DNA of 64,000 bases, from contig JARGXX010000019.1 of assembly GCA_030374765.1 (NCBI GenBank), forward strand, positions 1 through 64,000. The letters run 5' to 3'. The DNA is from Agarophyton chilense (taxonomy: Eukaryota; Rhodophyta; Florideophyceae; Gracilariales; Gracilariaceae). Below, in pieces: positions 1-25,844 of the stretch. Position numbers and translations under genes: made by a program. The notes under the pieces were generated by a model that worked only from the letters and a program-made list of their open reading frames with translations, had not been told where the DNA came from and made no database searches. Every line of letters begins with the position of its first letter. The stretch's first letter is position 1.

Positions 1-160
1 ATAACTCGACCGTCGACGTGTACCCTCACCGCTTCACGACGTTCGGTCTGCCACTTTGGACCCCGATTCGAATGGCCATGGTCGGCCCTATTCCAGGCCA
101 ACCCCTCAACCCGGTCGTGGAGATAGCCAAAAAAGAAAGCCGAGTTGGTGGACATCATTA

Positions 161-3063: not shown

Positions 3064-6000
3064 ATGTCGCAAAACAGCTTATCCTCCGCCGGCGAACATG
3101 GCTTGCCCGTGTTCATCCCCTCTTCGGTGCACAGCCCACCGAGGGCTGCGGTGAACATCTCACCGCCCACTCCCCCTAATCCCCTGCTCCCCCCACCGCC
3201 TCCGCCCGTGGCGCGTGACGCCCATGCTCAACCCCATTCCGACTTACCCGTTACCGACGCAAATGCAGCCGACGATTCTTCCTCTTTTATCATGGCACTC
3301 GGTACCATTGTGAATATGGGTATTCATTCTATTGGGTTCTTTCCGTTGTGCTTCAACTGCCAGTGTGGGCTGCCGTCTGCCCGCGCAATCCAACATCACT
3401 TGCGCAAACAGCACTCCATCCCTTTGGAAATTGCAAGTCCCATGTCAATGGCAATCCTGCACGAGGTGCACACCTTGCGCAACAACTCTAACGTTGCCCC
3501 CGTGTGGCAAAAGTATCGCCCCCAACACAACGCTCAATTTGTGTCCGGGCCCTCTACGTTCCTCACGCCCCTGGCACACATTGCCATTCACAATGGCTAT
3601 CAGTGCCCGCTCTGCAAATTCTGCTACCTCGACCCCGTTCGTTTGCAAGCGCATCTGATCGAATGCCACAATATGTCGCCTGCGGTTGCCCAGCCACACC
3701 TTGACCGTACCGTCTCGTCGGGCCGTATTGCCTTGCAGACAGTGTACGGCGGCGTTCGTCGCCGTTTATTCCCCGTTACCAATGCTCAACCCATAGGCTG
3801 CTTGTCCAAAACTTTCCAGGTTCCGCAGGCGCCTGCGGCACGGCCTGAGACCCCCCCGGCGCAGCCTGTTTGTCTCCAACCACCCCATCGTCCAGTGGCA
3901 ACGACTGCCAAAGGCATCGAGCCCCCGCTTCAACACATTAACCACTTTTTACAAAAGTTCAACACCGGCGCTCCTTGTTCGCAATCAGACCCTTTGCTTC
4001 GTCACCACTCGGAGAAGAATTCTTTCATCACCTTTTCCAAGTTTGACATCGTTCTTCACTCGCTTCATGTTCATCTGGATGTGGCGGCTCAACTATCCAG
4101 AACTGGCACAACGCCCACATCCGCTGAAAGCACCATCACCCACCACATCTTCGACTACCTCTCTCAGGTGAACATTTTGGTTAGTAAGACCTCCCTGGCT
4201 TTCTTGGACCGCCTCAACAAGCGCACCGACACAGCTTTTAAAACTGTCTCCACTGAAACCCTCAAGCGTTACGCTTCACACATTTCCCGTTTGCTTGTGT
4301 TTACTCACAGGACAAGGGCAAACCTCCCTCATCTCGTACCCGACTCAGACCTCATGTACTGCTACACTACTTCCGTGTTGGATGCCATTCGCATGTCTTC
4401 CTCTGGTGAGCTCCCCGCTCCCTTTCCTCCAACCCAACATGGCCCAGCGGTCCATAGCGCGCTCAAGCCCTTCTTGCTTCAATCTTTAGCGCCATACCAC
4501 TCTTTGGATCTCCTCTCCGTTCGCAACTTCATTGCTTGCGCAAGCGTGATAAGCACCGACCCCAACCCGCCTATCGCTGCCCCCTTGCCGTCTGACCGCA
4601 CGCCTGAGCCTTACGACACGGTCATTTCTCACGACCCCAACAATACCTCCTTTCGTTTTGCAGCCGCCTCAGATGTGACGCACCTCCTCGCCGCTCTTCA
4701 ATATGGCATCTGTGCCTGCGCCATACACGAACTGCACGTGCTCTCCAAATCTTCTCCCCTGTTGCAACCTGCCACCCCTGCTTCCGAACGCCCAGTTCAC
4801 GTTCAAGAACGCATGCGTACCATCGACGCGGCAATCGACGCTGATTCCAACAACGCCCTTTCGTTTGTCAGAAAGACACTCACGCTTGCAATGTCCATAT
4901 CCTCTCGCGAGGAAATGTTCGTTTCTTTCCACAATTGTGATGTTCACCCGTCCTGCGGCATAGTGCGTGACACTCACCTCGCCCTCTCAGAAGTCGGCTC
5001 TTTGGTTTTAACTCTACACAAAGAAATACAACATACTCTTCACAACGACCTGCTTCTTGGCCACGCTCTGCCAACCGGTTTCACAAACGCGCTACACTCA
5101 CTTCAGGACGACTCCTTCAACAAAAGCCCAGGCTTTTCTTTCCTTACCAACCTCAACAACCGCCCATTTATCGAACAAAACATGGCTTTCGTTTTCACTT
5201 GTCTCACGTCTTCCATGCCCCACAACTCCAACACCGACCACACTCCGTTTCTTCCGCAACGCAAGCAAAACGGTACCTTTCCCCGCACACAACTGCCCAC
5301 AACCGACATTTTGGGCACCGATATGTTCACGCATGCGTTGTCGAGGTGGCTCTCATGTGCACAGAAAATCCAAGAACGCCTGTTGGTTGCGCTACACCTT
5401 TCGTCGGGCTCTCCTGCGCGCGGCACAGAGATTGAGACATACCGTATCCACAACGACCAACACTTTCAACGTTGTCTCATGCTCATCGACAAATCGCCTG
5501 TCCTCATTTGCCGGTACATGAAAACGCGAAACAGCAAAGGGGCCGCCACTCCGATTGCTCGCTTTCCCGATGCCCAAACATCCCGTCTTCTGCTCATGTA
5601 CTTGACTCTGATACGTCCGTTTGAAGCATATATCGTCCGCTGCCTACACGGAGAAAACTGTTTCCAGATGCATTGGAAAATGCTGTTCGCCAACTGCGGA
5701 ATTCCGTATGCCGCAAACACCATCCGCTCGATAATCAGCTCTCACTTGAGCAAACGCGGTTTCCCGATATCCTTCAACGACTATAGAAACTTCACCGTGG
5801 GAATGACCAACACAGTTTCCAATGTCACCGCATCTTCTGTAGCCGATCACATCTTGGAAGAGCTATTGACCATTGCCCATGGCCAGGCGGGCCACTCTGC
5901 GCACACCGCCGCTTTTCTTTACGCTCGTACACCACATGACATATCCGGTTTGCAGCACTCTCAACTTTCCAAATATCACGAGTGGTCCAGCAAATGGCAC

Positions 6001-8607
6001 CAGTATCTCGGTCTTCTTCTTAATGCTCCCCTCACCCAACAACAACAACAACAACAACACCACAGAAAACGTCCGGTTACTGACACAGTTCTACCTACAC
6101 CTGAACCAAAGCGCTCCATCCATACATCGCAGCCAACCCCGTCCCCTCCCACTGACCGCTCTGCGATCCCCCATTCTCAAATCAACCTAAACCTGGCCGC
6201 CTCTCATCCTTTCAATCCACATCCGCCTGCTTTTATGGCAGCCGCCATACCGCGCGGTGGAGCTTCTCTCTTACAACAACCGCTTGTGACCTACGAACAT
6301 ATTACATCAGAAATGCTCCGAGCACTAAGACAGGCACTTTCCAACGACTCCGCTTTATTCAAGTCCCACCAACAATTTGTGAACACAGCGGCCGTGTACA
6401 ACAGGCTTTCCAACATGCTACTACTCCAGCCGACTGGATCTGGAAAAACACTATCTCTTCTGCTCCCCGTCTTCATGGAAAAGGGCAAATACTCCACCGT
6501 TCTCATCACCCCTCTCACAGCCTTGCGCAGTGAATACGAACTGCGCGCTCAGCTCTTCGGCCTTCGTGCTTCTCGTACACCCACCCCTCCCGGATCGCAC
6601 TCCTTTGCCGACATTTACATCTTTTCCGCTGAAAGACTTTCTCTTCCTTCTTTTACAGAGTTCACCACGCGACTGATCGCCGCCGACCGCCTCGCCCGCA
6701 TTGCCATCGATGAATGTCACTTATTTCTTTTATGGCAACACTTTCGCCCGTGCTTGGCCAACCTCCACAACTGCTTCGGCCATATTCCCACAAAGATCCC
6801 TCGCGTGCTTTTAAGCGCGACAGTGCCGCCGCGCGACCGCCCCCTTCTTCTGTCGCAGCTGCACATCCCGAACGCGCATGTGTACGCTTCTTCGACTGCA
6901 AGAAACAACATTTCTTTTGTCGTGTATCAGCTAAGCTCAGCCCCCAGCACTTCGCGTGCCACACGCTTTCGCGCCGCTCATGGCCACTTTCAGGATGTGT
7001 TTGGATACCTGCTTCAGCTGGGCGTCTCAATCATGCAAGAGCATGTGGCTCGATTGCTTCACTCGTCGGCTGACACAACCCTAGCTCGCGTTCTTATATT
7101 CTCGTTAACACGCCCGGCTGCCGAAGCTGTCCATGAAGCTCTCGCCGCTTCGCGTTCTTCTTTTGGTGCCCTTAAACAATCCACTACTGTCACGGTTCTC
7201 CTGTACCATTCTGGTCTCTCCGATGTTCGTAAACGCCGGGCTCACACCCTTTGGAACTCTCCGCCTTCTTCCAGCGCACCCACAACCAACCACATTCTCT
7301 TCATGGTTTGCACCTCTTCTTTTGGTACGGGCATCGACGTTCCCAACGTTCGCCTGGTTTTCAACTTTGGTGGAGTAGCGAGTCTTTGCGATCTCGCGCA
7401 ACAGGCCGGCAGGGCCGGCCGCGATGGAAACCCATCCACTTGCGTCACCATTTATTTCCAGCCCTACTTCAAACTCGTTACGGAAACTCTTTCTTCGTCC
7501 TCATCCAACACAAATGCGTTTGAGGAGCCCAATCGCATATACAACCAAGCACTTTCCACGGAGCGTTGGTTGGAAGCGCAGCATTGGGTCGAATGCAAAT
7601 CTGTTTGTCGAAGGAATGCCCTCTATTTCCACATGGACGGAAAAGAACCAGGCATCTGTCTCTTCTCTCCTTCGGTTCTTAATTGCGATATTTGCAATAG
7701 CATCGCAGCTGTCTCCCCCTCTCCCACCCCGGAACGAAGCTCCGTTTCCGCTACCCCTTCTGCCTCTCAGCACGCCCAATCCATTTCACCGTCACCCAGC
7801 GCTTCCCCACAAACGCCCACGCCGCCAAAAAACCGTGCCAATCAATCAAACAGAACATCCTTAAACAACCAAAACACGAACACCAACGGCGGCCCAACAC
7901 AAAGCCCCAAACCCCACGCCAGTCGTCCACCACGACCCCCCACCTCCACTCCATCGCCCTTGCTGACAACCACGCATCCATCCGCAGCGACCCAATCGCC
8001 CACTGTCGCTCATTCTCAATCTCAGTCGCACTCTGCCACCTTCTTTTACACCTTGGAACGAAAAACACCGCAACAAATCGTGTCACACTTCGAGGAGCTC
8101 TCCCGCCGACTTGCCCCTCTCTGTGTGCCATGCTTGCTGCACGAAAAAACGCAAGTGCACTTGACGGACACTCATGCATGCCCCCATTCCCGTCAACGAT
8201 GCTTCAGATGCTTTTCGCCGCACCATATATCGCGCAACTGCAGGTTCGATAAATCACCTCAAGGAACCTGCTACCGTTGCCATCTCGGATTCTGCAAGGG
8301 ACTCAAAACTCATTCTCAACCGCACACTTTTGGAACAAGACACTGCATCTTCATTTCGCTCTATCAACTGGCATGGGTCTTGTGGCGAACATGCTCCAAA
8401 ACTCGCTCCGAAATTGCACTCCACCTCTTTGACGGCCGCATGCAATCCAAGTTCAACTCCATTTCCCAATCCTCCCAAGATTCCTCACCCCTCCACCTTG
8501 AAATAGACGCCATGTTTCATGATTGGTTAACACACAACAACCACTTTGCCGTACCCAACATTCTACGCCTTGCAGCTTGGTGGAAGTCAACCACAACACT
8601 CATTTAA
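3064..8607 (+). CDS. C2H2 / tyrosine recombinase / RecQ helicase fusion protein, copy 1 (intact, 1,847 aa)
   Basis: The only uninterrupted member of a three-copy family here. Order: two C2H2-like fingers (C96/C99 and C181/C184 starts); a tyrosine recombinase domain with arginine in GSPARGTE (R786), second arginine in FNDYR (R908), AGHSAHT (H944) and nucleophile Y953 in LYAR; a Gln run near 992; a RecQ-type helicase with Walker A TGSGKT (K1128), DECH at 1216-1219 and motif VI QQAGRAGRDG at 1446-1455; a RecQ zinc region CRRN...CDIC near 1511-1550; a Ser/Pro/Asn-rich linker; and a C-terminal Cys/His cluster ending in a conserved LAWVLWR segment. The parts suggest DNA cutting and rejoining coupled to 3'-5' unwinding, as in a transposon that moves by site-specific recombination (inference). 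The start is ATG 3064; the upstream frame opens with TTG. Codons are strikingly C-rich compared with copies 2 and 3. I know of RecQ genes at fungal telomeres but not this exact fusion. Confidence 0.85.
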   Translation: MSQNSLSSAGEHGLPVFIPSSVHSPPRAAVNISPPTPPNPLLPPPPPPVARDAHAQPHSDLPVTDANAADDSSSFIMALGTIVNMGIHSIGFFPLCFNCQCGLPSARAIQHHLRKQHSIPLEIASPMSMAILHEVHTLRNNSNVAPVWQKYRPQHNAQFVSGPSTFLTPLAHIAIHNGYQCPLCKFCYLDPVRLQAHLIECHNMSPAVAQPHLDRTVSSGRIALQTVYGGVRRRLFPVTNAQPIGCLSKTFQVPQAPAARPETPPAQPVCLQPPHRPVATTAKGIEPPLQHINHFLQKFNTGAPCSQSDPLLRHHSEKNSFITFSKFDIVLHSLHVHLDVAAQLSRTGTTPTSAESTITHHIFDYLSQVNILVSKTSLAFLDRLNKRTDTAFKTVSTETLKRYASHISRLLVFTHRTRANLPHLVPDSDLMYCYTTSVLDAIRMSSSGELPAPFPPTQHGPAVHSALKPFLLQSLAPYHSLDLLSVRNFIACASVISTDPNPPIAAPLPSDRTPEPYDTVISHDPNNTSFRFAAASDVTHLLAALQYGICACAIHELHVLSKSSPLLQPATPASERPVHVQERMRTIDAAIDADSNNALSFVRKTLTLAMSISSREEMFVSFHNCDVHPSCGIVRDTHLALSEVGSLVLTLHKEIQHTLHNDLLLGHALPTGFTNALHSLQDDSFNKSPGFSFLTNLNNRPFIEQNMAFVFTCLTSSMPHNSNTDHTPFLPQRKQNGTFPRTQLPTTDILGTDMFTHALSRWLSCAQKIQERLLVALHLSSGSPARGTEIETYRIHNDQHFQRCLMLIDKSPVLICRYMKTRNSKGAATPIARFPDAQTSRLLLMYLTLIRPFEAYIVRCLHGENCFQMHWKMLFANCGIPYAANTIRSIISSHLSKRGFPISFNDYRNFTVGMTNTVSNVTASSVADHILEELLTIAHGQAGHSAHTAAFLYARTPHDISGLQHSQLSKYHEWSSKWHQYLGLLLNAPLTQQQQQQQHHRKRPVTDTVLPTPEPKRSIHTSQPTPSPPTDRSAIPHSQINLNLAASHPFNPHPPAFMAAAIPRGGASLLQQPLVTYEHITSEMLRALRQALSNDSALFKSHQQFVNTAAVYNRLSNMLLLQPTGSGKTLSLLLPVFMEKGKYSTVLITPLTALRSEYELRAQLFGLRASRTPTPPGSHSFADIYIFSAERLSLPSFTEFTTRLIAADRLARIAIDECHLFLLWQHFRPCLANLHNCFGHIPTKIPRVLLSATVPPRDRPLLLSQLHIPNAHVYASSTARNNISFVVYQLSSAPSTSRATRFRAAHGHFQDVFGYLLQLGVSIMQEHVARLLHSSADTTLARVLIFSLTRPAAEAVHEALAASRSSFGALKQSTTVTVLLYHSGLSDVRKRRAHTLWNSPPSSSAPTTNHILFMVCTSSFGTGIDVPNVRLVFNFGGVASLCDLAQQAGRAGRDGNPSTCVTIYFQPYFKLVTETLSSSSSNTNAFEEPNRIYNQALSTERWLEAQHWVECKSVCRRNALYFHMDGKEPGICLFSPSVLNCDICNSIAAVSPSPTPERSSVSATPSASQHAQSISPSPSASPQTPTPPKNRANQSNRTSLNNQNTNTNGGPTQSPKPHASRPPRPPTSTPSPLLTTTHPSAATQSPTVAHSQSQSHSATFFYTLERKTPQQIVSHFEELSRRLAPLCVPCLLHEKTQVHLTDTHACPHSRQRCFRCFSPHHISRNCRFDKSPQGTCYRCHLGFCKGLKTHSQPHTFGTRHCIFISLYQLAWVLWRTCSKTRSEIALHLFDGRMQSKFNSISQSSQDSSPLHLEIDAMFHDWLTHNNHFAVPNILRLAAWWKSTTTLI

Positions 8608-8634
8608 GCACGATTTTAGATTCCAACCCGGTAC

Positions 8635-8640
8635 AATAAA
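8635..8640 (+). terminator. AATAAA polyadenylation signal for copy 1
   Basis: AATAAA lies 28 bases after the stop codon of the gene ending at 8607. Assigned by sequence and position only. Confidence 0.4.
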
Positions 8641-9016
8641 CACCCATTCTTCTTTCTCCATTTTGCTTTCAACTCTCTTCCTTGCCACAGAAAACCACAT
8701 TTCCTCCTCTTTATACTTAAGTATAACGCCAAACACCCCATATTCGACCGTTACATTACACCCAACCCAGCAACAAGCGTTATTCAAACGACTCTATCTC
8801 CAGCTCAACCTCAGCCCCTAAATACCCCAACTCCGCCTCAAAAATACAGTGTAACGAAACAACCTACACTCTATATCAGTCCTACACATAAAGCCCAGTA
8901 CACTTATCGAATGCAGGTCGCTCAACACAGAACTTTATCCAACCACCGCAGATATCCAGTACACCCTCAAACAATCTGTTCACCACGCATTCGTACTATA
9001 CTGGAACTTGACGTCT

Positions 9017-9540
9017 CGACTCTAGACCCCTAAAACCCCTAAAATCCAATAAACGCAAAGCTTCCCCTAAAACCCCTAAAGCCCTCCAGCCCCTAAACAA
9101 TGTTTTCCTCTCCGTAAATAAAAAATCCCATAAAGGTAAAGTTTCCCCTAAACCCCCTGAACCCCTGAACCCCTGAACCTCTAAAACCCCTAAAACCCCT
9201 ACACAATGGTTTCCTCTCCGTAAATTCAAAATCCCATAAAGACTCCTAAAACCCCTAAAATCCAATAAACGCAAAGCTTCCCCTAAAACCCCTAAAGCCC
9301 TCCAGCCCCTAAACAATGTTTTCCTCTCCGTAAATAAAAATCCCATAAAGGTAAAGTTTCCCCTAAACCCCCTGAACCCCTGAACCCCTGAACCTCTAAA
9401 ACCCCTAAAACCCCTACACAATGTTTTCCTCTCCGTAAATTCAAAATCCCATAAAGGTAAAGCTTCCCCTAAATCCCCTAAACTCCTAAACCCCTGAAAC
9501 CTGTAAAAGCCCGTACACAATGGTTTCCTGTACGAAAACG
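9017..9540. repeat. telomere-like minisatellite (CCCCTAAAA / CCCCTGAA), 216-bp higher-order unit
   Basis: Runs of CCCCTAAAA, CCCCTAAA and CCCCTGAAC (TTTTAGGGG-like on the - strand) sit inside a larger period: AAAATCCAAT recurs at 9041 and 9257, giving 216 bp. Each unit is made of two halves of about 108 bp that end in a shared TTTCCTCTCCGTAAAT...ATCCCATAAAG tail. About five half-units are present; the last is diverged. Because 108 is a multiple of three, a 204-codon frame stays open on the - strand, but it encodes only the repeat. The G-rich strand resembles eukaryotic telomere repeats but is not uniform, so this is interstitial or subtelomeric-type DNA rather than an active end. Confidence 0.85.
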
Positions 9541-9800
9541 TAAACTCCCGTAGGCCCTGACCAATAGCTACTTTGTGGCGATGGCACTGTTGGACAAACC
9601 TTAACGTCATAAGACCCTACCTGGCATCGTTAAGCATACGTCATCCCTACCTCACTAAACGCACTGCACGCGTCTTCTTTAGCTGAGAGTGTGGCGCCAG
9701 CACTCGCCTGACCTACTACTCACCACACTCAACCTACATTGAACTTGACAATACCAACGAATATCGGCCCCCAGTGTTGCCGGATATGAAAACCATCCTA

Positions 9801-10380
9801 GAACCAAGCGCAAACGCACCTTTTTCAGCCGCGTACACGACCCCAAAAACGCACATACAAAACGCCTGACAATGTGCCATCTGCCTCCACGAAATCGCCA
9901 CAGAACCAAGCGCAAACGCATAACACAACCCTTTCTTTTGATAAAAATTTCGCACATTATCCAGCTTACAACACAGCTCGACTGTGCAGCGGAGATGTGG
10001 CTGAAACCAAGCGCCTTTGAGTGCCACACTCGACGCACGCCTCCACGTTGTGTAGCAAAAATGTTACAATAAAGCATGTGCAAACGCAGGATTTGGCAGA
10101 AAGCCCAGCGCGCGTAAAATTTATGATTTTTTCAAAAGCAAATATTGCGAAAATGGGTGCTGCGCCCCAACATCTGGCAATTCGCGCGCTACGTTACCCG
10201 AACGAAGCGCCTGAGCGCAATTAGCCACGATTTTTTGAGCGTGCCAATGTGTCATACGCGCTCTCCAGCACAACGTTTTCCATCCAGGGTGTCAAAATCG
10301 CACATACGTCGAATGCAGCGCGTGGCGCTTGGTGTATGTAATTACCAAGCGCTACTGACAACTGCGTTTTACCAAGCGCC
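9801..10380. repeat. array of AAGCGC motifs at about 100-bp spacing upstream of the Ulp1-like gene
   Basis: ACCAAGCGC begins at 9803, 9905 and 10006 (spacing 102 and 101), with weaker forms near 10103, 10202 and 10313, then exact copies at 10344 and 10371. The first two copies share the longer GAACCAAGCGCAAACGCA. Sequence between them is only faintly similar, so this is either an old tandem repeat or spaced binding sites. Confidence 0.5.
10325..10352. promoter_or_regulatory. inverted repeat GCGCTTGGT / ACCAAGCGC
   Basis: A perfect 9-bp inverted repeat with a 10-base spacer, made from the same ACCAAGCGC core as the surrounding array. It lies about 50 bases upstream of the TATA-like run and about 205 bases upstream of the ATG at 10559. 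It could be a dimer-binding site; no factor can be named. Confidence 0.4.
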
Positions 10381-10401
10381 AGCCCACACTTACAACCTGT
10401 A

Positions 10402-10410
10402 ATATATATA
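10402..10410 (+). promoter_or_regulatory. TATA-like element for the Ulp1-like gene
   Basis: ATATATATA lies about 150 bases before the ATG at 10559 and just before a C run, in an otherwise mixed sequence. Assigned by motif and position only. Confidence 0.35.
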
Positions 10411-10423
10411 GACCCCCCCCGAA

Positions 10424-10444
10424 TTGGGGGGCTGCGCCCCCCAA
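10424..10444 (+). other. strong G/C hairpin in the probable 5' leader
   Basis: TTGGGGGGC, loop TGC, GCCCCCCAA: a perfect 9-bp stem, followed by another C run. If transcribed from the TATA-like run at 10402 it would lie near the 5' end of the mRNA of the gene at 10559. Confidence 0.5.
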
Positions 10445-10558
10445 ACCCCCCCCCCTCTTTTTCGTTCTCACCAGGTACTCCATTTCAGGTTTATCTCCGT
10501 TCGGATCAACCACTTTTCATTTCCACTACCTCGTTTTGACTTCTTCCGCCTTTCCCTC

Positions 10559-13360
10559 ATGCCCAAGCGCGATGCTGTTAAGGTCAATACCGTCTATGAC
10601 AGGAGTATGGAATCCCTTTCCATCTTCTTGTCGAATGTTTATCGACGAATTCAGGAAGCCAGAACGTCTTCTGTGCGTGTGGCTTGCGTAGATCTTTTCG
10701 TTGGACCCGTTACTGGCCACCACACATCTATGAAGAAGTTAACTACGTTAGCGCAGGAGATTGGTTCAAGTCTGGAATACCATTTGTCAGAGCCTCTGCT
10801 GGTACTGAACGGAACCGGTAGCGTGCTGTATGGTAAACTGGTCGTTGTCGGTGGTGGACACCGTTTCCTGGTGGGAGCCCGACAGAAGCATATGCTCTTG
10901 ATACCGTACCAAGTTGTGGATCTATCTAATCTTAATGATGATGGAAGTCCTGTAGACTTTTTGCGCCACGATTTCCTTCTCATTCATCACATAGAATCTT
11001 CCGAGCCGCGGCCTGCGGTTTACGGGATCATGGCACAAGTAGCCGAATATGAAAAGCTTCGAAACTACTGGAAGATGAAAGAAAATGAGCGCGTCCGCAA
11101 GCTCAACCGCCCCAGCGCTACACCACTATCCCCAACACATCCCAAAATTATCGATCTCTACAAGGCACTCTACAAACCATTGCGAAACAGAAGTACTCAT
11201 GCCATTGCTTTCATGGATCCATCTTTAACTATGAAGACATTGCACGGTTACTTATTGGGAGCGGATAGATTACTGAAAGCAAACGTAGTTGGAGATCTCT
11301 GCTTCTTGGAAGGCTTTGCAAACACAAGCTTCAACATTAGATCGCTTGAAACTGTACGCACCTGGAAGATCTCAAAGATTAAAGCTACCGGTGACCACTG
11401 GTTCCTTATCATTGAGAAGGAACCAGATACGCTCCTAAAGTTTGTCAAGGAGAGAAAAACGGGAAAGAAGAAGGACAATAAATCTACCGATAAGCAGTCC
11501 TGTAAGAACAATTCAACCATCCCTGGTCCGCCGATTCAGCATACAAAGCCTCCTGCTGGATGGGAATCTTACATTGATTGGACAGTGCAGGGGACGCTTT
11601 CCCTACTTGATCAACTGAAGTGGGCGCTCGAAGAAGAAGACGAAAGGGTGAGGAAGCAGGCGGGATGTTCGGCTACGGTGATTGATGACAACTCAGACAA
11701 ACTGGATATTGTTGAAAAAGTGAGATTGAGGATGTTATCTGCCCAAAAGAAAGCTGGGCATGTTGTTGACTTAGCAGCCCTTGTACAGGAAGAATCTGTT
11801 TCTTTCGAAACGGCCAGAGACCGTAGTGCTGAACTAGTTGTGGCAGGAGGGTTACTAAGAACCACACTCAGTCTATCTCCCAACGATATACTTTCTATAC
11901 AGAACCTAAGCTGGGCTACTGATCAAGTGCTTTTGTATACAATCTCGTTTTTGAACAACTGGACAGATCGCACTATGAAAGAAGTATACGTATTGGACCC
12001 TTTACTAACGCACGGGTGGTGGGAGAACAAATTTAACGAGGACTCTGCTGCTCTCAGACAGTTGCAGCAAAACGTTGGATCGCACACAAAGGCGAAAATC
12101 AACCCACACGAACTAGTTTGGAGGTCTCAGGTGTCGTTCTTGCTAATGTGTGGAAACAAGCACTGGAGCCTAGCTGTGCTTATAAACCTCCCCCAACTTC
12201 TTGATTCAATGGAGTTCAACTCAAATCTTAAGGATGAGCAGTATCCGTCCCACCAAGTCGCTCGATGTATTATAATGGATAGCATGAATTCCAAGACATC
12301 GCCACATCAGAACCTTGCGCAAAATGTACTGCATTACCTTACCTGTGCGTATCCGAACCCGACGCTACAGACTGAGACTCTGCGAAGATTACTTCCCATT
12401 TTCGAGTACAGAACCAACCTGCGGAAAGCGTGTGAATGTCGCTTTTTCGCCACTTACCATGCTGCAGTCACAACTCGAAACATTCAAGTGTTCCGTGAAG
12501 GTAATTTGGAGGATGTACGCCCCTACCTCAGTGACGTGCTAAGGAGTTACTCGTTCAATGAATATGATCATTCTCTTCAAACGAGGATGCATATCATGCA
12601 ATTCAGATTTGGCCAAAACGGGAGAAAATGTGTACGCAGCAACGTCTTTCTTTGGAACGACTATGAAAGTGCTCATGAGCCTCATCAGCGCGAGGATTCA
12701 AAGAAGTTACCGGAATCAAAGCTCTCCAAACATGAGCCTGTGTCGAACAGGACAAGGCTAAAAGCTGGAACGTCCAGAACGTCGCAGAAGACCATCGATA
12801 TCAGCGATGAAGCCCCATCGTCCAACGACCCAACCCGAGAAGACAAATCAACTACAAGGACACCAACGACTTCGTCACCCAACCTCGAAACCAACAAAGG
12901 AATTGCTCGTGCTCTACTGCAGTTCAGTCTTAATACCGCCGCGGAAACTAAAGTGGAGGAAGGTGGTTTCATTCACATTTTGAGCGATCTGAATGTGGAA
13001 CGGGTGATGCAAGAAGTGTCCCGGAGCAACGATGTGCTGCAGGCTATAGGAAAGGTCACTTCCGATCTGGCGCCTCGTATTAAAGAGGCTTTGCAAAGGA
13101 CGAGAACCCCTCCTACAAAAGAGAGTTTCAACGGAGACAAAGGCCCGAGTTTGATGTTACCAACCTCTCAGCTCGGTGTCTCCCACACAGATCATCATTT
13201 TGAGGAGCGTACTGGCACTGATGCAGAATCAATATTACTGGAAGGTGCGAAATTGATGAAACACAGCGCGGACAAGAGTATTCAGAAAGAATGGCAGGAA
13301 TGTATGCAGAAAGCGAAGGAGCTCATTGATCATGTGAAGAAGAAACGTAGGCTCATCTAG
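10559..13360 (+). CDS. Ulp1/C48-type cysteine protease-like protein (933 aa)
   Basis: Ulp1-family proteases remove SUMO or related modifiers, and related genes are carried by several DNA transposon groups. Here GNKHWSLAV gives the catalytic His (H535), IIMDSMN the Asp (D574), and KACECRFF the probable nucleophile (C627, with C625 nearby). The upstream FLNNWTDRTMKEVYVLDPLL region resembles the start of the fold. The His-Asp gap (39) is longer than usual and the normal DCG around the Cys is ECR, so activity is uncertain. Residues 1 to about 400 match no domain I recognise; 300-340 are Lys-rich. The ~200-residue tail before the last helical stretch is Ser/Thr-rich, and the protein ends KKKRR. 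The start is ATG 10559, as the upstream frame opens only with TTG. It lies between recombinase-helicase copies 1 and 2 in the same orientation and is uninterrupted. Confidence 0.65.
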   Translation: MPKRDAVKVNTVYDRSMESLSIFLSNVYRRIQEARTSSVRVACVDLFVGPVTGHHTSMKKLTTLAQEIGSSLEYHLSEPLLVLNGTGSVLYGKLVVVGGGHRFLVGARQKHMLLIPYQVVDLSNLNDDGSPVDFLRHDFLLIHHIESSEPRPAVYGIMAQVAEYEKLRNYWKMKENERVRKLNRPSATPLSPTHPKIIDLYKALYKPLRNRSTHAIAFMDPSLTMKTLHGYLLGADRLLKANVVGDLCFLEGFANTSFNIRSLETVRTWKISKIKATGDHWFLIIEKEPDTLLKFVKERKTGKKKDNKSTDKQSCKNNSTIPGPPIQHTKPPAGWESYIDWTVQGTLSLLDQLKWALEEEDERVRKQAGCSATVIDDNSDKLDIVEKVRLRMLSAQKKAGHVVDLAALVQEESVSFETARDRSAELVVAGGLLRTTLSLSPNDILSIQNLSWATDQVLLYTISFLNNWTDRTMKEVYVLDPLLTHGWWENKFNEDSAALRQLQQNVGSHTKAKINPHELVWRSQVSFLLMCGNKHWSLAVLINLPQLLDSMEFNSNLKDEQYPSHQVARCIIMDSMNSKTSPHQNLAQNVLHYLTCAYPNPTLQTETLRRLLPIFEYRTNLRKACECRFFATYHAAVTTRNIQVFREGNLEDVRPYLSDVLRSYSFNEYDHSLQTRMHIMQFRFGQNGRKCVRSNVFLWNDYESAHEPHQREDSKKLPESKLSKHEPVSNRTRLKAGTSRTSQKTIDISDEAPSSNDPTREDKSTTRTPTTSSPNLETNKGIARALLQFSLNTAAETKVEEGGFIHILSDLNVERVMQEVSRSNDVLQAIGKVTSDLAPRIKEALQRTRTPPTKESFNGDKGPSLMLPTSQLGVSHTDHHFEERTGTDAESILLEGAKLMKHSADKSIQKEWQECMQKAKELIDHVKKKRRLI

Positions 13361-17700: not shown

Positions 17701-18938
17701 GAGCCGCTGTTCTGGAAAGCGATATTTCTTTGGAATACAGAGGAAATACAATCTTTGAAATTGGCCCATATCAGCCCATGTCTCCCTTCGGTGTCAAACT
17801 CGTCGATGTAGGGACTCGGACATATGAACATCATCTCCCTACTTTTCTAGAGCACCTTCGCACAATGAACAGCTGCAATCAGTCGGTGTTTAAGTCCACC
17901 ATGCAATTTAACGTTACTGTTGCAGTAGCAGAACGCCGTGAAAACATTCTAGTGGTCATGCCCACCGGATCGGGAAAGACTTTGTGCATTCTAATTCCAG
18001 CGTTTATGAAACGCTCATCCTTTTCTACAATCATGATTGTTCCGCTGGTGGCACTGGTAGAGGAACTTAGGCTCCGTGCCGAGAAATGTGGGCTTCATGC
18101 CAGTACAACTATACCTGGAAACATCGGAGAGCCAGCCGACGTTTACATGCTCGTTCCCGAGCAGGTTCGGGACCAACGATTCAAGCAGTTGGTTCAAAAA
18201 CTTGTGGCGGAGAGAAGACTGGCCCGCGTTGTAATCGACGAAGCCCATCTCACTGCATCTTGGTCTTCTTTTCGACAAAGCCTTCGTGATTTGAGATACG
18301 GACTACTTGAAGTACCGAAAAGCATCCCACGCATCTTACTAACTGGGACTATTCCACCACGAGATCGCTCTGCCCTTGTCGCAAAGCATGGAATGCGTAA
18401 AGCTTCTGTTCTCAGCATGCCCACAGTCCGCAAGAACCTTTGTTTTGCCGTGATCAACGTCGAAAGCGATTCACCATGTTCGCAAGATCGTTCAGAGGGC
18501 GGAAGGTTTCAAAGTGCGAAGCAGAAGATCCTCGAGAAGACTCTCTCCGTTCTTGAAGAAAAGTTAGAAGAGATAGGTCAACAATTTAGGCTTAACGCCA
18601 ATGCTCATCAGGACTCGCCTGCTCTCCGAGTTCCCCTTTGCGTCACTCGAAGCAAGGACGCCGAGCAGCTCAGTGATATTCTATCAGCCTTATACGAGGA
18701 GGAACAGGGTTTAGACAACGGAAGCCCCAGGAAACCACTATCGAAAAAGGTCTCTGTTCTTTGCTTTCACGCCGGCATGGACAAGATTCAACGGATCCAG
18801 ATATACAAAGCTTGGAGACAGCAACATAGTCAAGGTGAAACCGATACGACGGATTCATCTCAGTGCACAGTGGTCCTCATGGTGTGCACGTGTGCGTTTG
18901 GAGCTGGAATAGACGCCCCTAATGTGAGACTAGTCTAG
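14790..18938 (+). pseudogene. C2H2 / tyrosine recombinase / RecQ helicase fusion, copy 2: N-terminal 1,382 codons, up to an in-frame TAG
   Basis: Homologous to the protein at 3064-8607 along its length. It begins MNGDIEIGVHSVGFF, the counterpart of the finger region of copy 1; two C2H2-like fingers follow. Recombinase motifs are GSPARATE (R703), FNDYR, AAHSVET and nucleophile Y870 in AYAR. The helicase has Walker A TGSGKT (K1062) and DEAH at 1150-1153. The frame stops at TAG 18936-18938, just after AGIDAPNVRLV in helicase motif V, and the same frame then continues without a gap as the rest of the gene (18939-19982). Only this one lesion is seen, so loss is recent, or the TAG is a sequencing error, or it is read through. 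Truncation here removes motif VI and both C-terminal zinc clusters, so a shortened helicase should be inactive. Codon use is more AT-rich than in copy 1. Confidence 0.8.
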
Positions 18939-19982
18939 CATGTAGGTGGATCTACGTCCCTTTCGGACCATGCACAGGAGTCTGGAAGAGCAGGGAGGGA
19001 TGGAAGGCTCTCTTTTTGTATCTCCGTCTACTCCAGTAGTCTTGCACGTTCCTTTGAGGCTGAACTAGAGCGAAAGGCATTGCAGATCCAAAATGAAGAA
19101 GACTATATTAAACTAGAGCAGTGGAGGGAAGAACAGAAATGGTTCGAAAACACTTTGTTGTGCCGAAAGAACTGGATGTATGGTGTCATGGACGGGGAAC
19201 AAAGTGGCATGTGCTTGCTGGATAGCGAGTCGGAGAATTGTGACATTTGCGACACTCGAAGCAATGGTGCACCAAAATTTGATGACGGTGATAAGCGACA
19301 GAGTTGGGAAAATTGCAGCCCTGCTGGGCCGAAATGGAGACCGAAACCCCACGCCCTGGAAGCGGAAGGTCCTGCTAACGCCTTCTCTCAAGCATATGAA
19401 GCTTCTAGTCGGGCACTACAATTTACATCTTCTCATGAAGAAGACTCAATGAGTCATGTTGTAGGGACTTGCGAGTCCCTCATTAGAGAATTTGAACATG
19501 ATTGCATTGCTTGCTATGTTTCACACAAAGCAGTTGTGAAACACGGTAATCAAAGTTGCGGGTGGAAAAGGAACCGAGGCTTCAGATGCTACTCAAAGGA
19601 TCACAGGTACCGCTTGTGTGACAAAGATCTTGCAATACCATCTGGAGGTTGTTTCAAGTGTGGTCTGTCTTACGCGAAAGGATTCAAAGTACACAGGGAT
19701 GGGCTGGGTTTCGGTCCTACTTGTAGACTGGTTCTTCTCAGGGAGCTTGGCTGGTTTCTGTGGAGATCATCGCCGATGAAAAGAGCGCGTTTGGTACAGG
19801 ATCTTTTCTGCGACAGAGACTGCAGTCTCTTCAACGAATCACAAGTGGCAAGCTTACGTTCTGACTCTACTATGTTTCACGAACAAGACCGGGTGTTTGC
19901 GAAATGGTTATCGTCGTCGGACGACGAAACTCCCAATGTTCTAAGGATTGGCGTTTGGTTTTCAAATGTGAGGAAGGAGTAA
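18939..19982 (+). pseudogene. recombinase-helicase copy 2, C-terminal part after the TAG
   Basis: Same reading frame as 14790-18938. It starts HVGGSTSLSD and reaches motif VI at once (QESGRAGRDG). Next comes a RecQ zinc region with CRKN...CDICD, then a linker much shorter than in copy 1, and a C-terminal Cys/His cluster: CIACY, then FKCGLSYAKGFKVH, then a conserved LGWFLWR. The first ATG in frame is near 19092, but that would give a fragment without catalytic motifs. It therefore makes sense only as a continuation of the upstream gene. Confidence 0.8.
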
Positions 19983-20427
19983 AACGAGCTTAGTCATATA
20001 TGAAAGTAAATGCAGCTGTACGTAAGTATAAACTTTCACATTCGTTTCACACGTACATGTTTTAGGGCAGTACTGCACCATTACCGATCAGAGATATGAA
20101 ATGAGAGTTATATGAACCGTGTGATGCTTGTAGTAAAGACCATGCTCCATTTCGCCGCGTTCTATGGTTTTGGTATCGTAAAATGATCAACAATGGAACG
20201 GGGCTAAATTTACCGGAGCGCTTTGGCATACAACTGGTTCTCCAAAAAACTAAAAATTTAATCGCGTTCCATTGCATCCATCAGGCACTGTGAAAAACGC
20301 ACATACACTTATTCTGCACTGCGTTCCATGGTTGGCGTCAGAGCAATGACAACATGTAAGCAGCCCAAACGCATGTAAAATCATAGAACCCAACCTGATC
20401 CTAGTAGTAGGAGTTGGGAAACAAAAA
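19983..20427. other. spacer between recombinase-helicase copies 2 and 3
   Basis: No coding sequence. It carries AAAAACGCACATACA near 20292, a motif also present near 9845 (and in part near 10295) upstream of the Ulp1-like gene. The third copy starts at ATG 20428. Confidence 0.5.
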
Positions 20428-22994
20428 ATGACTGAAGAAGGACGGAGCGACGTCCGTAGTGTGAACACATCCGAGTATCTTTTGAAAAATATCGAAGCAG
20501 ATTTGTTTACGAAGAGACTTAACGTTCTGCAGCGACTGGAGGCCCTTGCTTTTACAAGGCTGACAGATGCACCAATAGAATTGTTATTGAAGCCTTGCTC
20601 GAAAAGAACAGAACCCCATGATAAGAGAAGCGAAAATGACCTTGAACGTTTGGGAACATCTCTTTTGGCAGAAATCGGCTTTGAGGAATCGATACTACTC
20701 TCTCATGCCGCAACGTATTTAAAGGTGGCTGGCATTCAATTCCGGAAGAGTGCTGCTTTCATAAGCAGAATGGTTTGCACCATAGACATGTATACGCCAG
20801 ACACAAATGGAAATACCATGAGTTCGTCGACTCACGGGCGTCGCGTAAAATTTCAACCATCAAGTTCCCCGAAGACAGAGAAGGAATACTCGATCGTTTT
20901 GGCAACGCTCTGTGCATTCTTTATGCGCATAGTAGCAATCAAGATTTCGCTCAGTGGTGATGCAAGCGAAAATAGTCAAAGGGAAAGATGTGGCGAAAGC
21001 GTCTTGAGCTTTCGCCGAGTTCCCTTCGTTGTGGCGCGAAAGGTGACGGACCGATATAAATCTCTCCTTCATAGCATTGGAGAAAGATTTGAAACGGCGG
21101 TGTTGCATTTTAATGCCCAATACCGCCTGACATGTATTGCGTGCCAGAATTTGGGATGGGGAACTCAGCCTGCTCGGTGGAAAGAAACCCCATTACAGAA
21201 CAACGAAGATCGAAATTATGCAGAGGTGCGCTTTTCTCTTGAACGGGAACTTGATAAGAGGTTTCATGAGGTGGTGAAGTGCATCTTACTACAGAAACTG
21301 GGGCACACAGCCAGCACATACAGTTTGTTCGTTCATTCTTTTCTGTCGGTCTTCTGTGTGACTGATGACAAGCGTGGTATGTATCGATTGAGAAAGGCAC
21401 ACGAAGTATCTCCAACGCTTGCTGCATTGCTTTATTGTGCAAGCAGCTGCGGGGTTCTGGAAGCTTGTGATGTGTTTGAAACCACGGAAGGTGGTGCTCG
21501 CATTGCAAAAAGACAAAGCGAGCAGATTGAGACAATGAAGTTCGCCACCGCTAATACAATTCGGAACGAGTTTTTTGGGGCTGGAGACATTCCAATTGAT
21601 GGTAACACTCAGATCATGACGCATGACGATATTCGATCGCGATACAGGCAAGACAAGAATAATGCTGTCTCTTTTCTTCGAGAGTGGATGAGCACGAGCA
21701 TTTTAATTCAATCGTCGTCGAAAAGAAATGTTCGACTGTCATGGTGTCTCCAACACAAAAATTGTGCCTTCATTGATGGGAGAGAGTGTAGCATCGATAT
21801 TGTGAATAACGCGGTGCAAAATTTGCAGGGTGAGTTGCGACAATTGTTAGCAAAAGAGTTACTTCTCGGAGCAGATATGAATACGCAACTATGGACGAAG
21901 TTGACCAACGTCAACGACGATTATTGCATCGTCAAAGCAGGTGAAAATTTTCTCTCTGCCACGGATAACCACGAATTGGCATTGGAAACAAGCCGCCTGA
22001 TATTTTTCCATCTTATGGACAACAAGTGTCTGTTACATAGATTCTTTGACGTTGAGATATTGCAAGATGGTGCTTATGAAAAGGATGTCGACGACCCCTT
22101 GGACGTATATGCCATTCTACAACAATGTGTTCGGCTTGGTACACCATGCATAGAAAACTATTTGAGAAAATGTGAAGAGGCTAAGGAACTGGCTTTGGTT
22201 CTAGTTCACATATGCGGGGGTTCCCCGGCGAGAGCGACCGAAATCGGGACGTATATGTTCTGCAATGGCGAAAGCCTGTCTAGATCTTTCTTCTTCAAAC
22301 AAGGGCGTGTTGTGTTTCTTGCGGGGTATGGCAAGAATGAATGGAGAAGCGTATTCGAGACTGAAGTTTGGAGGCAGGTAGATGCAGAAATATCTCGGTT
22401 GTTATTGGTGCTTTTTCAATTGTTAGACCTTTTCAAGAGCTTCTACTACGTGCTAAGAAGCCTTCTGCTACAGATCAAGGGGTACTACACCATGTCTTCT
22501 GCTGTTCAGACGGAAAGCCATTCGATGCCCGACGCATCAGCGCTGTCATTACGAAACATTTTGCTTGCCACAGTATTCCGTACTCCTTCAGTCAGTACCG
22601 ACATTGGCAATGCTCGGTGGTGAAGAGATTTTCTACCCAAAATGGGAGAAACTTGTTGCTACTCTGTGACGAAGGCGAAGAATACTACGCCACATACAGT
22701 TTCACAGACGGAGACATCAGTGAAAAACCCGATGGAACAGGATCCGTGGCAGAGGTGATACATTTACAGGCCGGACATTCTGAAAGTACGGCTCGACTAA
22801 AATATGCTCAGTTGAGAGATTCACATCAATCTCTTAATAAGGATAAGAAGACGAAGTTCATTATGGCTTCAAAAGCATGGCACACCATCCTAGGCGTTAT
22901 TGAAGATTGGAAATACAAAAAGGTATCCTTTCAACAAATCGAAAGCAGAGAAGATGATGAAGACAGTCGTAGAAAACTTAACAAGCTGCCATGA
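20428..22994 (+). pseudogene. recombinase-helicase copy 3, tyrosine recombinase part, broken by a frameshift near 22,410
   Basis: Homologous to the middle of copies 1 and 2, without the N-terminal C2H2 fingers. The first frame (20428-22623) holds the recombinase core to GSPARATE and a segment ending SRLLLVLFQL. The homologous continuation (IVRPFQELL..., FSQYRHW, AGHSEST and nucleophile Tyr in KYAQ) lies in the next frame and ends at TGA 22992-22994. The switch is near 22,400-22,425, around a CTTTTTC run, consistent with a one-base indel. Beyond the switch the first frame encodes unrelated residues. All four recombinase signature residues survive if the frame is followed by eye, so decay appears young, though the protein is the most diverged of the three. 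Confidence 0.75.
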
Positions 22995-24239
22995 CAGCTA
23001 AAAGGTGCTGACGGGGGAAATGAATTTGAAGAGAAGCTATGTGGAAAGCGAAGCAGAGTGAAAGCGAGTTTGAACGTTCACATAATGGAACGCGACCCGA
23101 AGCGAAGCCGGAAAAGTAATAAACATTGTTCCATATCCGAAGGCAAGGGTGCTACATGGGGGGGAAATGCGTGCGAAGCAGTACGTACACAAGATTTGAA
23201 ACCAGGAGAAGAGCAATTTCAACAGTCGAAGCCTAGCGGACACGAAGTGAGTCGAACGGTGATCGAGGTTGAGAACTACAGGTTACCCCTGTTATACTTA
23301 CGAAAAGCTTTGAGTATTCCAGAAACACATTTTAAATCTGAAGCTCAAGCGCAAGCAATTCAAATGGTTTACACTGGTTCCGAAGATCTCATATTAGTAT
23401 TGGGAACGGGACAAGGAAAGTCCCTTGTGTACCAAGTGCCCGCACTTATGTCCAGACGCAGAAACGTGGTATTCGTTGTCGTTGTGCCTCTTCTCTCGCT
23501 GTTGCAAGAGCTCAGCAAAAAGAGTCAGGGAAGAGGTCTCCGAGTAGGAAGTTGGGAGAAAAGAGAAATATTGGATTATGACATTTTGTTTCTGACGGCG
23601 GAACCTTTATCAGGAATGGATTTCGAGCCGTACATTGCAAAAGTCCTCTGCCATCGGAAAAATGTGCAACTCGTCGTCGAAGAATGCCATTTGACTCTGC
23701 TTTGGAGTTGCTTTCGACCCGCAATGGAAAGTTTTCAAATGCGTCTCAGTAACCCTTGCCTACCGATGCGAAAGATTGTTCTCAGTGCAACGATTCCGCC
23801 TGTCATGTTTGAAAAGGTTGCCAAAGCGCACGGGCTTTCACCCAACTACCGCGTGATACGTAGAGACACTTTGCGCCAAAACCTATGTTACGAGGTGCGC
23901 AATGTCAATTTGGAAAAGTTTGGAAATACGGTATCCCGTATGGTGCAAGCTACAATTCATCAATTGAAGCTCGAAATTGAACATATATTTTGTGAAACGA
24001 TAACCAGAATGGAGAAAGTTCAAAGCGTGAAAGAAAGGCACCAAATTGTGGTATACTGCCCTTCGTGTTCTTTAGTAGATGAAGTCTTTAAGCAGCTCCT
24101 GGCGCAGGAATTGTACTCCAGTGAATTGGATCTCACAGACTACTCATCAATCGAATGGAATGGAAAGATGATGTCTGTTCCTATACGAGTCGGAAAACTG
24201 GTACTAGTCTTCGAATTCCCTCTTTCATATTACGCTTGA
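22995..24239 (+). pseudogene. recombinase-helicase copy 3, N-terminal half of the RecQ helicase part
   Basis: In the same frame as the end of the recombinase part, separated from it only by TGA 22992-22994. It could start on its own at an ATG near 23085 (MERDPKRSRK), so a split into separate recombinase and helicase genes is possible. Helicase motifs are Walker A as LGTGQGKSLVYQ, motif II as VEECH and motif III as LSATIPP. It ends at TGA 24237-24239, before motifs V and VI, which follow in the same frame. Confidence 0.7.
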
Positions 24240-25844
24240 ATGAAACGGGAGGATCGTGATAACAATCAAAGAAAGTGGCTGAGAGGAATCGATGGGCTTC
24301 AAAACCTGTCAACGAGTACTACTGTTCGTGAATGGGACGACTTGAAATGGACTTTCGACAATCTCAAACTGGCTTCAAGTAATATGCCGCCTAAACAATC
24401 AGAGGAAAAGAATAGTTTGGGGAAGAGAAAAGTGCTTATGTTTCAAATAATGTCGGCTACATCAGCGTTTGGAACGGGCATCGACTCTTCCTTCGTGAGA
24501 AGTGTTGTGCACGTTGGATTCTCTCGTAGTGTGATGGAATATATTCAAGAGTCTGGTAGGGCAGGTCGTGATGGTGAGCCCGGAAGATGTGTTTTATTGT
24601 TCAATGAAACGTTTCTGAAGCGCTACGAGCAAGTTATCAAGTATGAGCCACCGGAATCAGTACGTTTGATGGTCAATGAATCTAAATCATCGCAGTCGTT
24701 ATCAAATTCTTCTCATCCACGGGGAAGGAAAACAGGTATGAACAAAGACGCAGCAGTTTGTTACTTGAGAACAGAAGCCGTCCATGAGATTCTGAGTGCG
24801 GAGTACGCGTGGAGAAGATTTTGTTTGTGGGCCAGAAACTCAACGTTTTGCAGGAGGCAGACCCTTTATGCTGAAGTAGACAATGTGGTGCCAGAGCCAT
24901 GCTTTTTTTATCGGAATGGAATTGTGTGTGACGTTTGTAGAAAACGTTTTTGCACGAAACTGGTACTCGAATCAACAGACAGTGATGAGAACATCCCACT
25001 TACGAACGTTGAACACAGTGTGCAACAAGAAATGGCGAATTCAACTACAAACATTTTAGCGGGTGAGAGAAAGTCCGAATCACCAATAGATGTCAGGAAA
25101 AAAGAGTTGCCGAATCTTTTTAGAGTTTTCGACAAACAGGAGAACAGAGATGAAAAAGCACAAAGTATCAGAAAAACAAACGCTGTTTTTTGGAATCTGT
25201 TGACCAAGCTATCTAATCACTGTCTGTGTCTGGTGTGCTATGTTGAAGGAAAAGAGCCTCACTACTCCGAGGGGTACAACTCTACTGGGGATAGGGAATG
25301 TTTCAGGAGGTTTCAACGCTGTTTTAAGTGTCTCCGTACAAACTGCGAAAGTATGAAAACGAAATCATCCTGTCCCCTTCTTGGAGACGTAAGACAAAAG
25401 ACGAACGTCGGCAATAGCTGGGATGGAAAGGAAAATGATTCTAGGGGCATTTCAATGAATATATCGCAATCAATCAAACCTCATTTCATTCGAGGCAATT
25501 TGGAAAACGCCAATGAAAGCTGGAAAATGCAGGATGCGCCTTGTTGCTATGGATGTGGTCTTCCTTTGAAGTTTGAATCGTCAGAAACACATCCAAGTCG
25601 TGACCAGATAGGGAGTCGATGTCTTGTGAAGGCATGTCTAAAGGTTTGCATTGCAGTGTGGTGTAATGAGGATGGAAGAACTTGGATTATTGATGAGTTC
25701 AAACTGTCGCGCGACATGGATGACAATACCTTGAGAAGCATGTATGCCTTTGTCACATGGTTGCAAGAGAAAAACTCCGAACGAGTTGGTTTCAATGTCA
25801 TGGATATGTTTCCAAAATTATGGGTACGAATGAAAGGCTGGTGA
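24240..25844 (+). pseudogene. recombinase-helicase copy 3, C-terminal helicase half and zinc clusters
   Basis: Continues the frame of 22995-24239 after a single TGA. The ATG at 24240 directly follows that stop. It holds FGTGIDSSFVRSVVHVGF (motif V), QESGRAGRDG (motif VI), a RecQ zinc region with CRRQ...CDVCRK, and a C-terminal cysteine cluster (CLCLVCY, then CFKC, then CCYGCG). Compared with copies 1 and 2 the last part is shuffled and loosely conserved. A separate 534-residue product would lack Walker A and could not act as a helicase by itself. Confidence 0.7.

Follow-up and report, generated by a model that had tools for sequence, protein, structure and literature searches.

Three recombinase-helicase genes near a contig end of Agarophyton chilense

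The window analysed here is a stretch of 64,000 nucleotides from the red alga Agarophyton chilense, namely the first 64 kb of the 96.7-kb contig JARGXX010000019.1 (C19), and the genome searched with it was the 79.8-Mb assembly (GCA_030374765.1) in 135 contigs. An earlier note, made from the sequence alone, had described at positions 3064 to 25844 three tandem copies of a gene that joins a tyrosine recombinase (YR) to a RecQ helicase. Three homologues do lie at these positions on the plus strand, each with a YR signature followed by RecQ: their frames were located, DEAD was matched in all three copies in a Pfam scan, and the YR fold and catalytic residues were present (see below). Copies 1 and 2 are referred to as TLH1 and TLH2, for telomere-linked helicase (TLH).

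3064–8607, plus strand: copy 1 (TLH1); C2H2 fingers, YR, RecQ, and C-terminal cysteine motifs; 1847 amino acids from the first Met
3349–3669 (3349–3414 and 3604–3669), plus strand: two C2H2 fingers of copy 1, seen by eye
4102–6084, plus strand: core-binding and catalytic YR domains of copy 1 (residues 380–1040; catalytic R819, K853, R941, H977, and Y986)
5257–6099, plus strand: YR catalytic domain of copy 1 alone, from structure comparison
6427–7428, plus strand: RecQ helicase core of copy 1 (DEAD, Helicase_C; best PDB matches RecQ/BLM)
14790–19982, plus strand: copy 2 (TLH2), interrupted by the stop codon 18936–18938
16884–17405, plus strand: YR signature of copy 2 (GSPARATEI ... VKTRG ... 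FNDYRNY ... QAAHSVETAERAYAR)
20411–25844, plus strand: copy 3; 5′ side apparently cut at the TLH2 right end; frameshifts and one stop

Copy 1 is a single open frame (2965–8607), and copy 2 is read in two frames, 14457–18938 and 18939–19982, with the stop between them. Frameshifts and a stop break copy 3 into three pieces (20350–22623, 22995–24239, and 24240–25844), and the second half of its YR signature (FSQYRHW; QAGHSESTARLKYAQ) lies in a different frame. The C2H2 fingers that the note had reported for two copies were recognized by eye, two each in copies 1 and 2 and none in copy 3, the 5′ side of which appears to be cut at about position 20411. Helicase_C exceeded the Pfam cut-off in copies 1 and 3 but stayed below it, at 16.6 of 23.5 bits, in copy 2 (first piece); OrsD was also sub-threshold in copy 2 (23.9 of 26.6 bits).

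The description of these genes as tandem copies did not hold. Identity to copy 1 over the alignment was 33% for the first piece of copy 2 and 21% for that of copy 3, and pairwise identity among the three copies was only 21–35%. Given these values and the two different ends that lie between the copies, tandem duplication was excluded as their origin. They appear tandem because three layers are stacked, which we read as the inner part of a TLH1 block (1–10410), a TLH2 block (10412–20410), and copy 3; copy 3 seems to have lost its zinc-finger region to the TLH2 block.

A tyrosine recombinase domain shared with basidiomycetes

Structure comparison with VIA-align revealed a likeness of the copy 1 domain to the catalytic fold of YR and topoisomerase IB proteins, both for residues 380–1040 and for the catalytic domain alone. 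The domain is thus real: its structure resembles the YR fold and its catalytic residues are present, contrary to the possibility, raised in the note, that structure prediction would reveal no such fold. The Pfam check that the note had proposed recovered the helicase half, with DEAD and (in copies 1 and 3) Helicase_C, but not the recombinase half, no Pfam YR family being matched by copies 1 to 3 at E ≤ 1; DUF3435, the family of the Starship captain, was also absent from the Pfam families at that level. Foldseek alone, against the viral library and the PDB, gave nothing at E ≤ 0.001 for the YR structure, and a PDB search with a YR sequence profile gave three weak matches with no recombinase among them. 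The product P0008 had no match among viral contigs.

Across 28 family members, the two arginines, the lysine, and the tyrosine of the active site were each present in all 28, and the H/W position was kept in 27. The first His/Lys of the HxxR box is not kept, position 938 being S in 12, R in 9, N in 2, G in 2, Q in 2, and K in 1 of the 28. Active-site residues are invariant between the algal and basidiomycete relatives. Among 19 equal-length copies of copy 1 (of 20, one being excluded for its length), pN/pS was 0.35 (39 synonymous and 43 nonsynonymous changes), with values of 0.39 for the YR catalytic part and 0.31 for RecQ. The catalytic residues were intact in all 19 of these copies, with the exception of K853 (18 of 19).

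A search with copy 1 as the query yielded 7 proteins, those of Coprinellus and Hydnum among them, and a search with the Coprinellus protein yielded 38, including proteins of Agaricus, Leucocoprinus, Ephemerocybe, and Ceratobasidium. The basidiomycete relatives align across the zinc fingers, YR, and RecQ, and the homologues from Coprinellus, Agaricus, Leucocoprinus, Ceratobasidium, and Hydnum are annotated as helicase, P-loop NTPase, or hypothetical protein. OrsD was matched in 15 of the 28 family members at E ≤ 5. A private algal invention of the fusion is excluded, given that the basidiomycetes have it too. The statement in the note that no standard element is known to carry such a fusion is corrected in that the architecture of zinc finger, YR, and RecQ is shared with basidiomycete proteins of the TLH type, for which no report of the YR part was found.

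Copies at chromosome ends

The copy numbers given here for copies 1, 2, and 3 are lower bounds. Copy 1 occurs at no fewer than 25 places with 97–100% identity, itself included, and has no inner stop in 22 of the 25 listed places; those in long contigs of known length lie near contig ends, and contig C76 starts with telomere repeats. For copy 2, at least 15 places with 89% identity or more were found, itself included. Five of the other places have frames of 1865–1878 amino acids, one with an inner stop and four open at 1865. The first piece of copy 3 is single, the next matches listed standing at 22–28%. The fused gene belongs to multi-copy DNA that has moved between chromosome ends, and the single-copy host orthologue that the note had held out as an alternative was not what we found.

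Homology between TLH1 blocks runs from the contig end to window position 10411 and then stops, its other side reaching the contig end. The block common to chromosome ends exceeds 10 kb and contains frames on both strands. The outer part of the TLH1 block contains tandem repeats of ~773 bp (L032:5219–8460 and the matching parts of L029–L040), beside which are minus-strand frames of up to ~1000 amino acids; the one frame scanned was without a known family.

Copies that are 97–100% identical and blocks that reach contig ends, as in other subtelomeres, are features of ordinary subtelomeric recombination, in which gene conversion and break-induced replication would spread chromosome tips and the YR would be a relic or serve for DNA binding only. 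The S. pombe tlh genes are polymorphic (PMC7840980), which also favours this explanation. It is taken up again below with the joints.

A fixed inner end and its acceptor sites

The TLH1 and TLH2 blocks each terminate on their right side at a defined point:

9803–10379, no strand: iteron field with six exact ACCAAGCGC, three of which fall, along with an 11-bp inverted repeat, within the final 90 bp
10389–10410, plus strand: fixed right-hand terminus of the TLH1 block (CTTACAACCTGTAATATATATA); the GAC that follows is assigned to the neighbour
10412–13360, plus strand: gene of the copy 2 block, a 982-amino-acid frame that precedes the TLH2 frame in the places compared
20157–20331, no strand: iterons of a second family, GCGTTCCATGG; the 175 bp contain 4 matches at two mismatches or fewer
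20387–20409, plus strand: fixed right-hand terminus of the TLH2 block (AACCCAACCTGATCCTAGTAGTA), then GG

All 16 TLH1 joints that were read directly end in TTACAACCTGTAATATATATA, followed by different DNA. These joints comprise that of the window, two in L040, and those in 13 of 23 short stretches, the remaining 10 stretches lying beside the end and showing none. Beyond the joints we found a TLH2 gene (C96, C117), TLH1 genes (C4, C10, C32), satellite, and other subtelomere DNA. A 17th joint, in C76, reads TATATAGTA/CATG (a stroke here marks the joint) beside a palindrome and was excluded from the set. This palindrome (L031:4182–4262; arms of ~35 bp with TATATATA at the centre) lies directly after the TLH1 end and is perhaps a small inserted element.

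Allowing up to two mismatches, the genome contains the 22-base TLH1 end 147 times, 70 in forward and 77 in reverse orientation, compared with 0 for the reversed control. Among the matches listed, it points inward in 75 of 75 places on contigs of at least 150 kb, at 26 contig ends and no farther than 89.5 kb from the end; 25 of the 100 listed places were excluded from this count, the contig being short or of unknown extent. The end lies 1569–1802 bp past the last codon in all 17 copy 1 places where it appears among the matches listed, and at five of the 8 other copy 1 places (C103, C107, C116, C117, and C121) it was read directly. Exact ACCAAGCGC iterons number 6 in the window, all within the field preceding the end, with 0.45 expected in 64 kb. 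Several TLH1 ends lie 798 bp apart at C98:1474950–1480122, apparently as end-plus-spacer units without a gene.

With twenty more joints added to the 16, G directly follows the end in 31 of 36, an extra TA is present in 4, and an extra A in 1. Setting these aside and merging equal sites left 28 distinct acceptor sites, two of which lie within one satellite and are possibly not independent; 26 of the sites begin with G, and 27 have a purine in second position. An element-free copy, usually at another chromosome end, was available for 21 sites, the other 7 having no unoccupied copy, and in 17 of these 21 the preceding base is A. When the first two bases were left free, the counts for A, G, and purine were 17, 18, and 19 of 21, respectively. 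TLH1 joints prefer A/G-purine acceptor sites.

A fixed donor point combined with a short acceptor preference calls for an enzyme that cuts at a particular sequence, and the TLH gene beside the end codes for a YR whose catalytic residues are conserved. Homology, by comparison, leaves unexplained both a fixed joint beside unrelated sequences and a three-base target preference, and a relic would not account for active-site residues that are invariant between alga and basidiomycetes. We regard ordinary subtelomeric recombination as unlikely.

The TLH2 end behaves similarly. Contig C93 is 97.6% identical to the window up to ...CCAACCTGATCCTAGTAGTA/GG and then diverges, the window continuing as copy 3 while C93 carries other DNA; these are the two TLH2 joints read. 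The end occurs at 18 places in the genome (1 for the reversed control) and points inward in 14 of 14 places on contigs known to be at least 150 kb long, as counted by hand. In 12 of the 13 copies that reach one fixed codon, it lies exactly 1452 bp past that codon, the exception being the C10 copy, for which no end is among the matches listed. Matches to GCGTTCCATGG with up to two mismatches number 29 in the whole window, versus 17.6 expected. In 8 of 8 places, all of them matches of 91% or more that reach its C-terminus, the 982-amino-acid gene stops 1.1 kb short of the TLH2 frame, with distances determined by hand. Its product (P0002) matched no family above the cut-off; its HWSL and D-S motifs may resemble those of the C48 (Ulp1) proteases.

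The two blocks thus differ in both end and iterons, and each end goes with one gene subfamily, which would be expected if every recombinase recognized a site of its own. Behind a different gene, C76 has a diverged end that retains only the final 89 bp of the TLH1 end (at 87.6%), together with two exact iterons, and terminates TATGTATA/GG. A third, weaker end in the same contig (66 bp, 80%) is followed by A, not G.

Telomere repeats and reverse transcriptase arrays

The telomere-type repeat, as read at L031:1–90, consists of irregularly mixed CCCCTAAA and CCCCTAAAA units (TTT(T)AGGGG). A degenerate interstitial satellite of this type is present inside the TLH1 block:

9024–9512, plus strand: telomere-like satellite, CCCCTAAA(A)-rich, with a 215-bp unit; the repeat type also occurs at the start of contig C76

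A reverse transcriptase (RT) gene of 602 amino acids (RVT_1; L031:220–2028) forms near-perfect head-to-tail arrays with a period of 3060 bp at contig ends (C87, C127, C32, C89, C63, C1, C135, and C76). A second RT subfamily is 71% identical and has a period near 3232 bp. From its motifs, the 602-amino-acid RT is probably an endonuclease-free Penelope-like enzyme. The telomeres of A. chilense may be partly retroelement arrays. In the one RT copy read (C76), CCCCTAAA(A) telomere repeats stand before and after the gene. A Penelope RT sharing the TLH 3′ end was excluded, since in C76 the RT 3′ DNA is followed in turn by telomere repeats, the satellite, a spacer, and only then the end.

These arrays bear on terminal retro-addition, the main rival explanation, according to which the fixed end corresponds to an RNA 3′ terminus, an RT (for example, a telomeric Penelope-like one) primes on broken chromosome ends, homologous copying extends the tip, and the TLH recombinase is unused. 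Three observations favour this explanation: the short TA tail at the fixed end, with its occasional extra TA; the stable RNA fold of the TLH1 end (z = −2.87); and the tandem RT arrays at chromosome ends. Retro-addition is further favoured by the strict polarity, by the tail-only copies about 800 bp apart on C98, and by the co-location of telomeric retroelements and TLH genes described for Fusarium (PMC12857005). An A/G-purine preference, however, is not expected of randomly broken ends, and the TLH1 and TLH2 ends differ, each going with its own gene. The RT gene does not directly share the TLH end, its 3′ part meeting telomere repeats first in the copy read, and the block of more than 10 kb common to chromosome ends has frames on both strands. 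No hammerhead ribozyme was detected at E ≤ 5 in window positions 8600–10600 or in L031:1–4400, which cover the end and the RT stretch searched. On balance, we consider retro-addition unlikely.

Neighbouring genes

Two further genes were identified:

5–2094, plus strand: DNA N6/N4-methylase and SET-domain gene, 5′ of copy 1 (PF01555, E = 9e-18; PF00856, E = 1e-6), in two overlapping frames
61420–63999: MCM3-like gene; identity 88% with Gracilaria domingensis over the full length and 76% with Chondrus crispus at 79% coverage

The methylase and SET domains form one frame of 1141 amino acids in L035 (L035:3199–6624), and the methylase-SET DNA recurs at other chromosome ends; it is a chromatin-modifying gene that travels in the TLH1 block. 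In Mycosphaerella, a subtelomeric repeat family with a DNA methyltransferase has been described, as well as subtelomeric RecQ genes (PMC4522978). ARAGORN with the bacterial code detected no tRNA genes in the 64-kb window.

Discussion

A one-sided element whose YR-RecQ protein moves chromosome tips at its own end site best accounts for the observations: the protein resembles the YR fold and has a conserved active site, the ends are fixed and uniformly oriented, the acceptor sites show a sequence preference, the blocks are stacked, and two gene subfamilies are each paired with an end of their own. Taken as a whole, we judge this reading to be just on the probable side. Each intact TLH subfamily would lie in an element whose inner, centromere-facing end is fixed and has its own iterons, with the outer side toward the telomere. 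The zinc fingers or the YR would bind the iterons and the end site, and the YR would cut at ...TATA/G and at an A/G-purine site on another chromosome. The tip would then be exchanged, or replicated onto the recipient with RecQ aiding strand opening and copying. Repeated events would stack layers and therefore produce the three diverged copies in tandem seen here. We infer the parts assigned to the YR in making the joint, to RecQ in opening or copying DNA, and to the iterons as binding sites; the tie between the YR and the joint is a correlation. Strict polarity and an open outer side fit the transfer of a whole tip and not a two-ended insertion in both orientations. The mobile-element superfamily proposed in the note thus survives in the sense of multi-copy DNA moved between chromosome ends, but does not look like an ordinary two-ended transposon of the Crypton or Starship kind, there being one fixed, inward-pointing end and another side that runs to the contig end.

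The same cutting could serve the host. A telomere-maintenance protein, that is, a domesticated recombinase-helicase healing broken ends, would amount to repair rather than selfish movement. Purifying selection is consistent with such a role, as is the up-regulation of subtelomeric RecQ-like genes after telomerase loss reported in Ustilago (PMC10532341). The copy number, the decayed old layers, and the joints that disrupt other TLH genes look selfish, however, and this explanation invokes the same cutting mechanism as the one-sided element, differing only in whose interest is served. We consider it very unlikely.

Crypton and Starship families also break DNA by means of a tyrosine recombinase, as proposed here. 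They have two ends, whereas only the inner end of TLH blocks was observed, the outer side running to contig ends; here, moreover, the YR is fused to RecQ and DUF3435 is not matched. The Y′ elements of budding yeast have flanking telomere tracts and are not known to have a sequence-specific A/G-purine joint or a YR domain. They resemble the TLH blocks in being subtelomeric and helicase-coding (PMC4522978). Terminons, Athena, and other telomere-attached Penelope-like elements, as well as HeT-A/TART, are similarly polar and form head-to-tail stacks on chromosome ends; in Terminons, telomere repeats separate the stacked copies (PMC6431247). They differ from the TLH blocks, in which no RT was found in the TLH1 block frames scanned with Pfam and no hammerhead at the end, the RT arrays of the alga being separate.

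Descriptions of telomere-linked RecQ helicases as puzzling genes of the subtelomere go back to the 1990s, and a role in telomere upkeep has been proposed for these helicases. By architecture and subtelomeric setting, the three genes can be assigned to this type, the named fungal TLHs being compared by description only: they encode a RecQ-type superfamily 2 helicase, copy 1 is subtelomeric and multi-copy with near-identical copies, and N-terminal C2H2 fingers are present in copies 1 and 2, with OrsD matched in part of the family. The named TLHs (Ustilago UTASa/UT5, S. pombe tlh1–4, Magnaporthe, and Fusarium TLH) are likewise described as subtelomeric, multi-copy RecQ helicases, and a Ustilago subtelomeric family is reported to combine RecQ with OrsD (PMC10532341). 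They differ in that no recombinase domain or fixed end site was found reported for telomere-linked helicases in the excerpts of the literature searched. The YR adds a new domain to the reading of an already known gene family, and no report of the element anatomy was found.

A wider claim, which we advance tentatively and which falls somewhat short of probable, is that these blocks represent a new kind of mobile DNA, one-ended with the telomere as its other end, in which a YR-RecQ protein transfers the whole tip. The TLHs of fungi and red algae would then all be such recombinases and would cause much of the turnover of subtelomeres, rather than passive homologous exchange. What are called "telomere-linked helicases" in fungi may in reality be recombinases by which chromosome tips are moved. 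A recombinase active site conserved between a red alga and mushrooms gives TLHs a testable enzymatic function, and the fixed end, the iterons, and the A/G-purine target provide a ready substrate for testing it. If this is true, subtelomeres in these organisms would be built in part by site-specific recombination, an idea open to testing in any TLH-bearing fungus.

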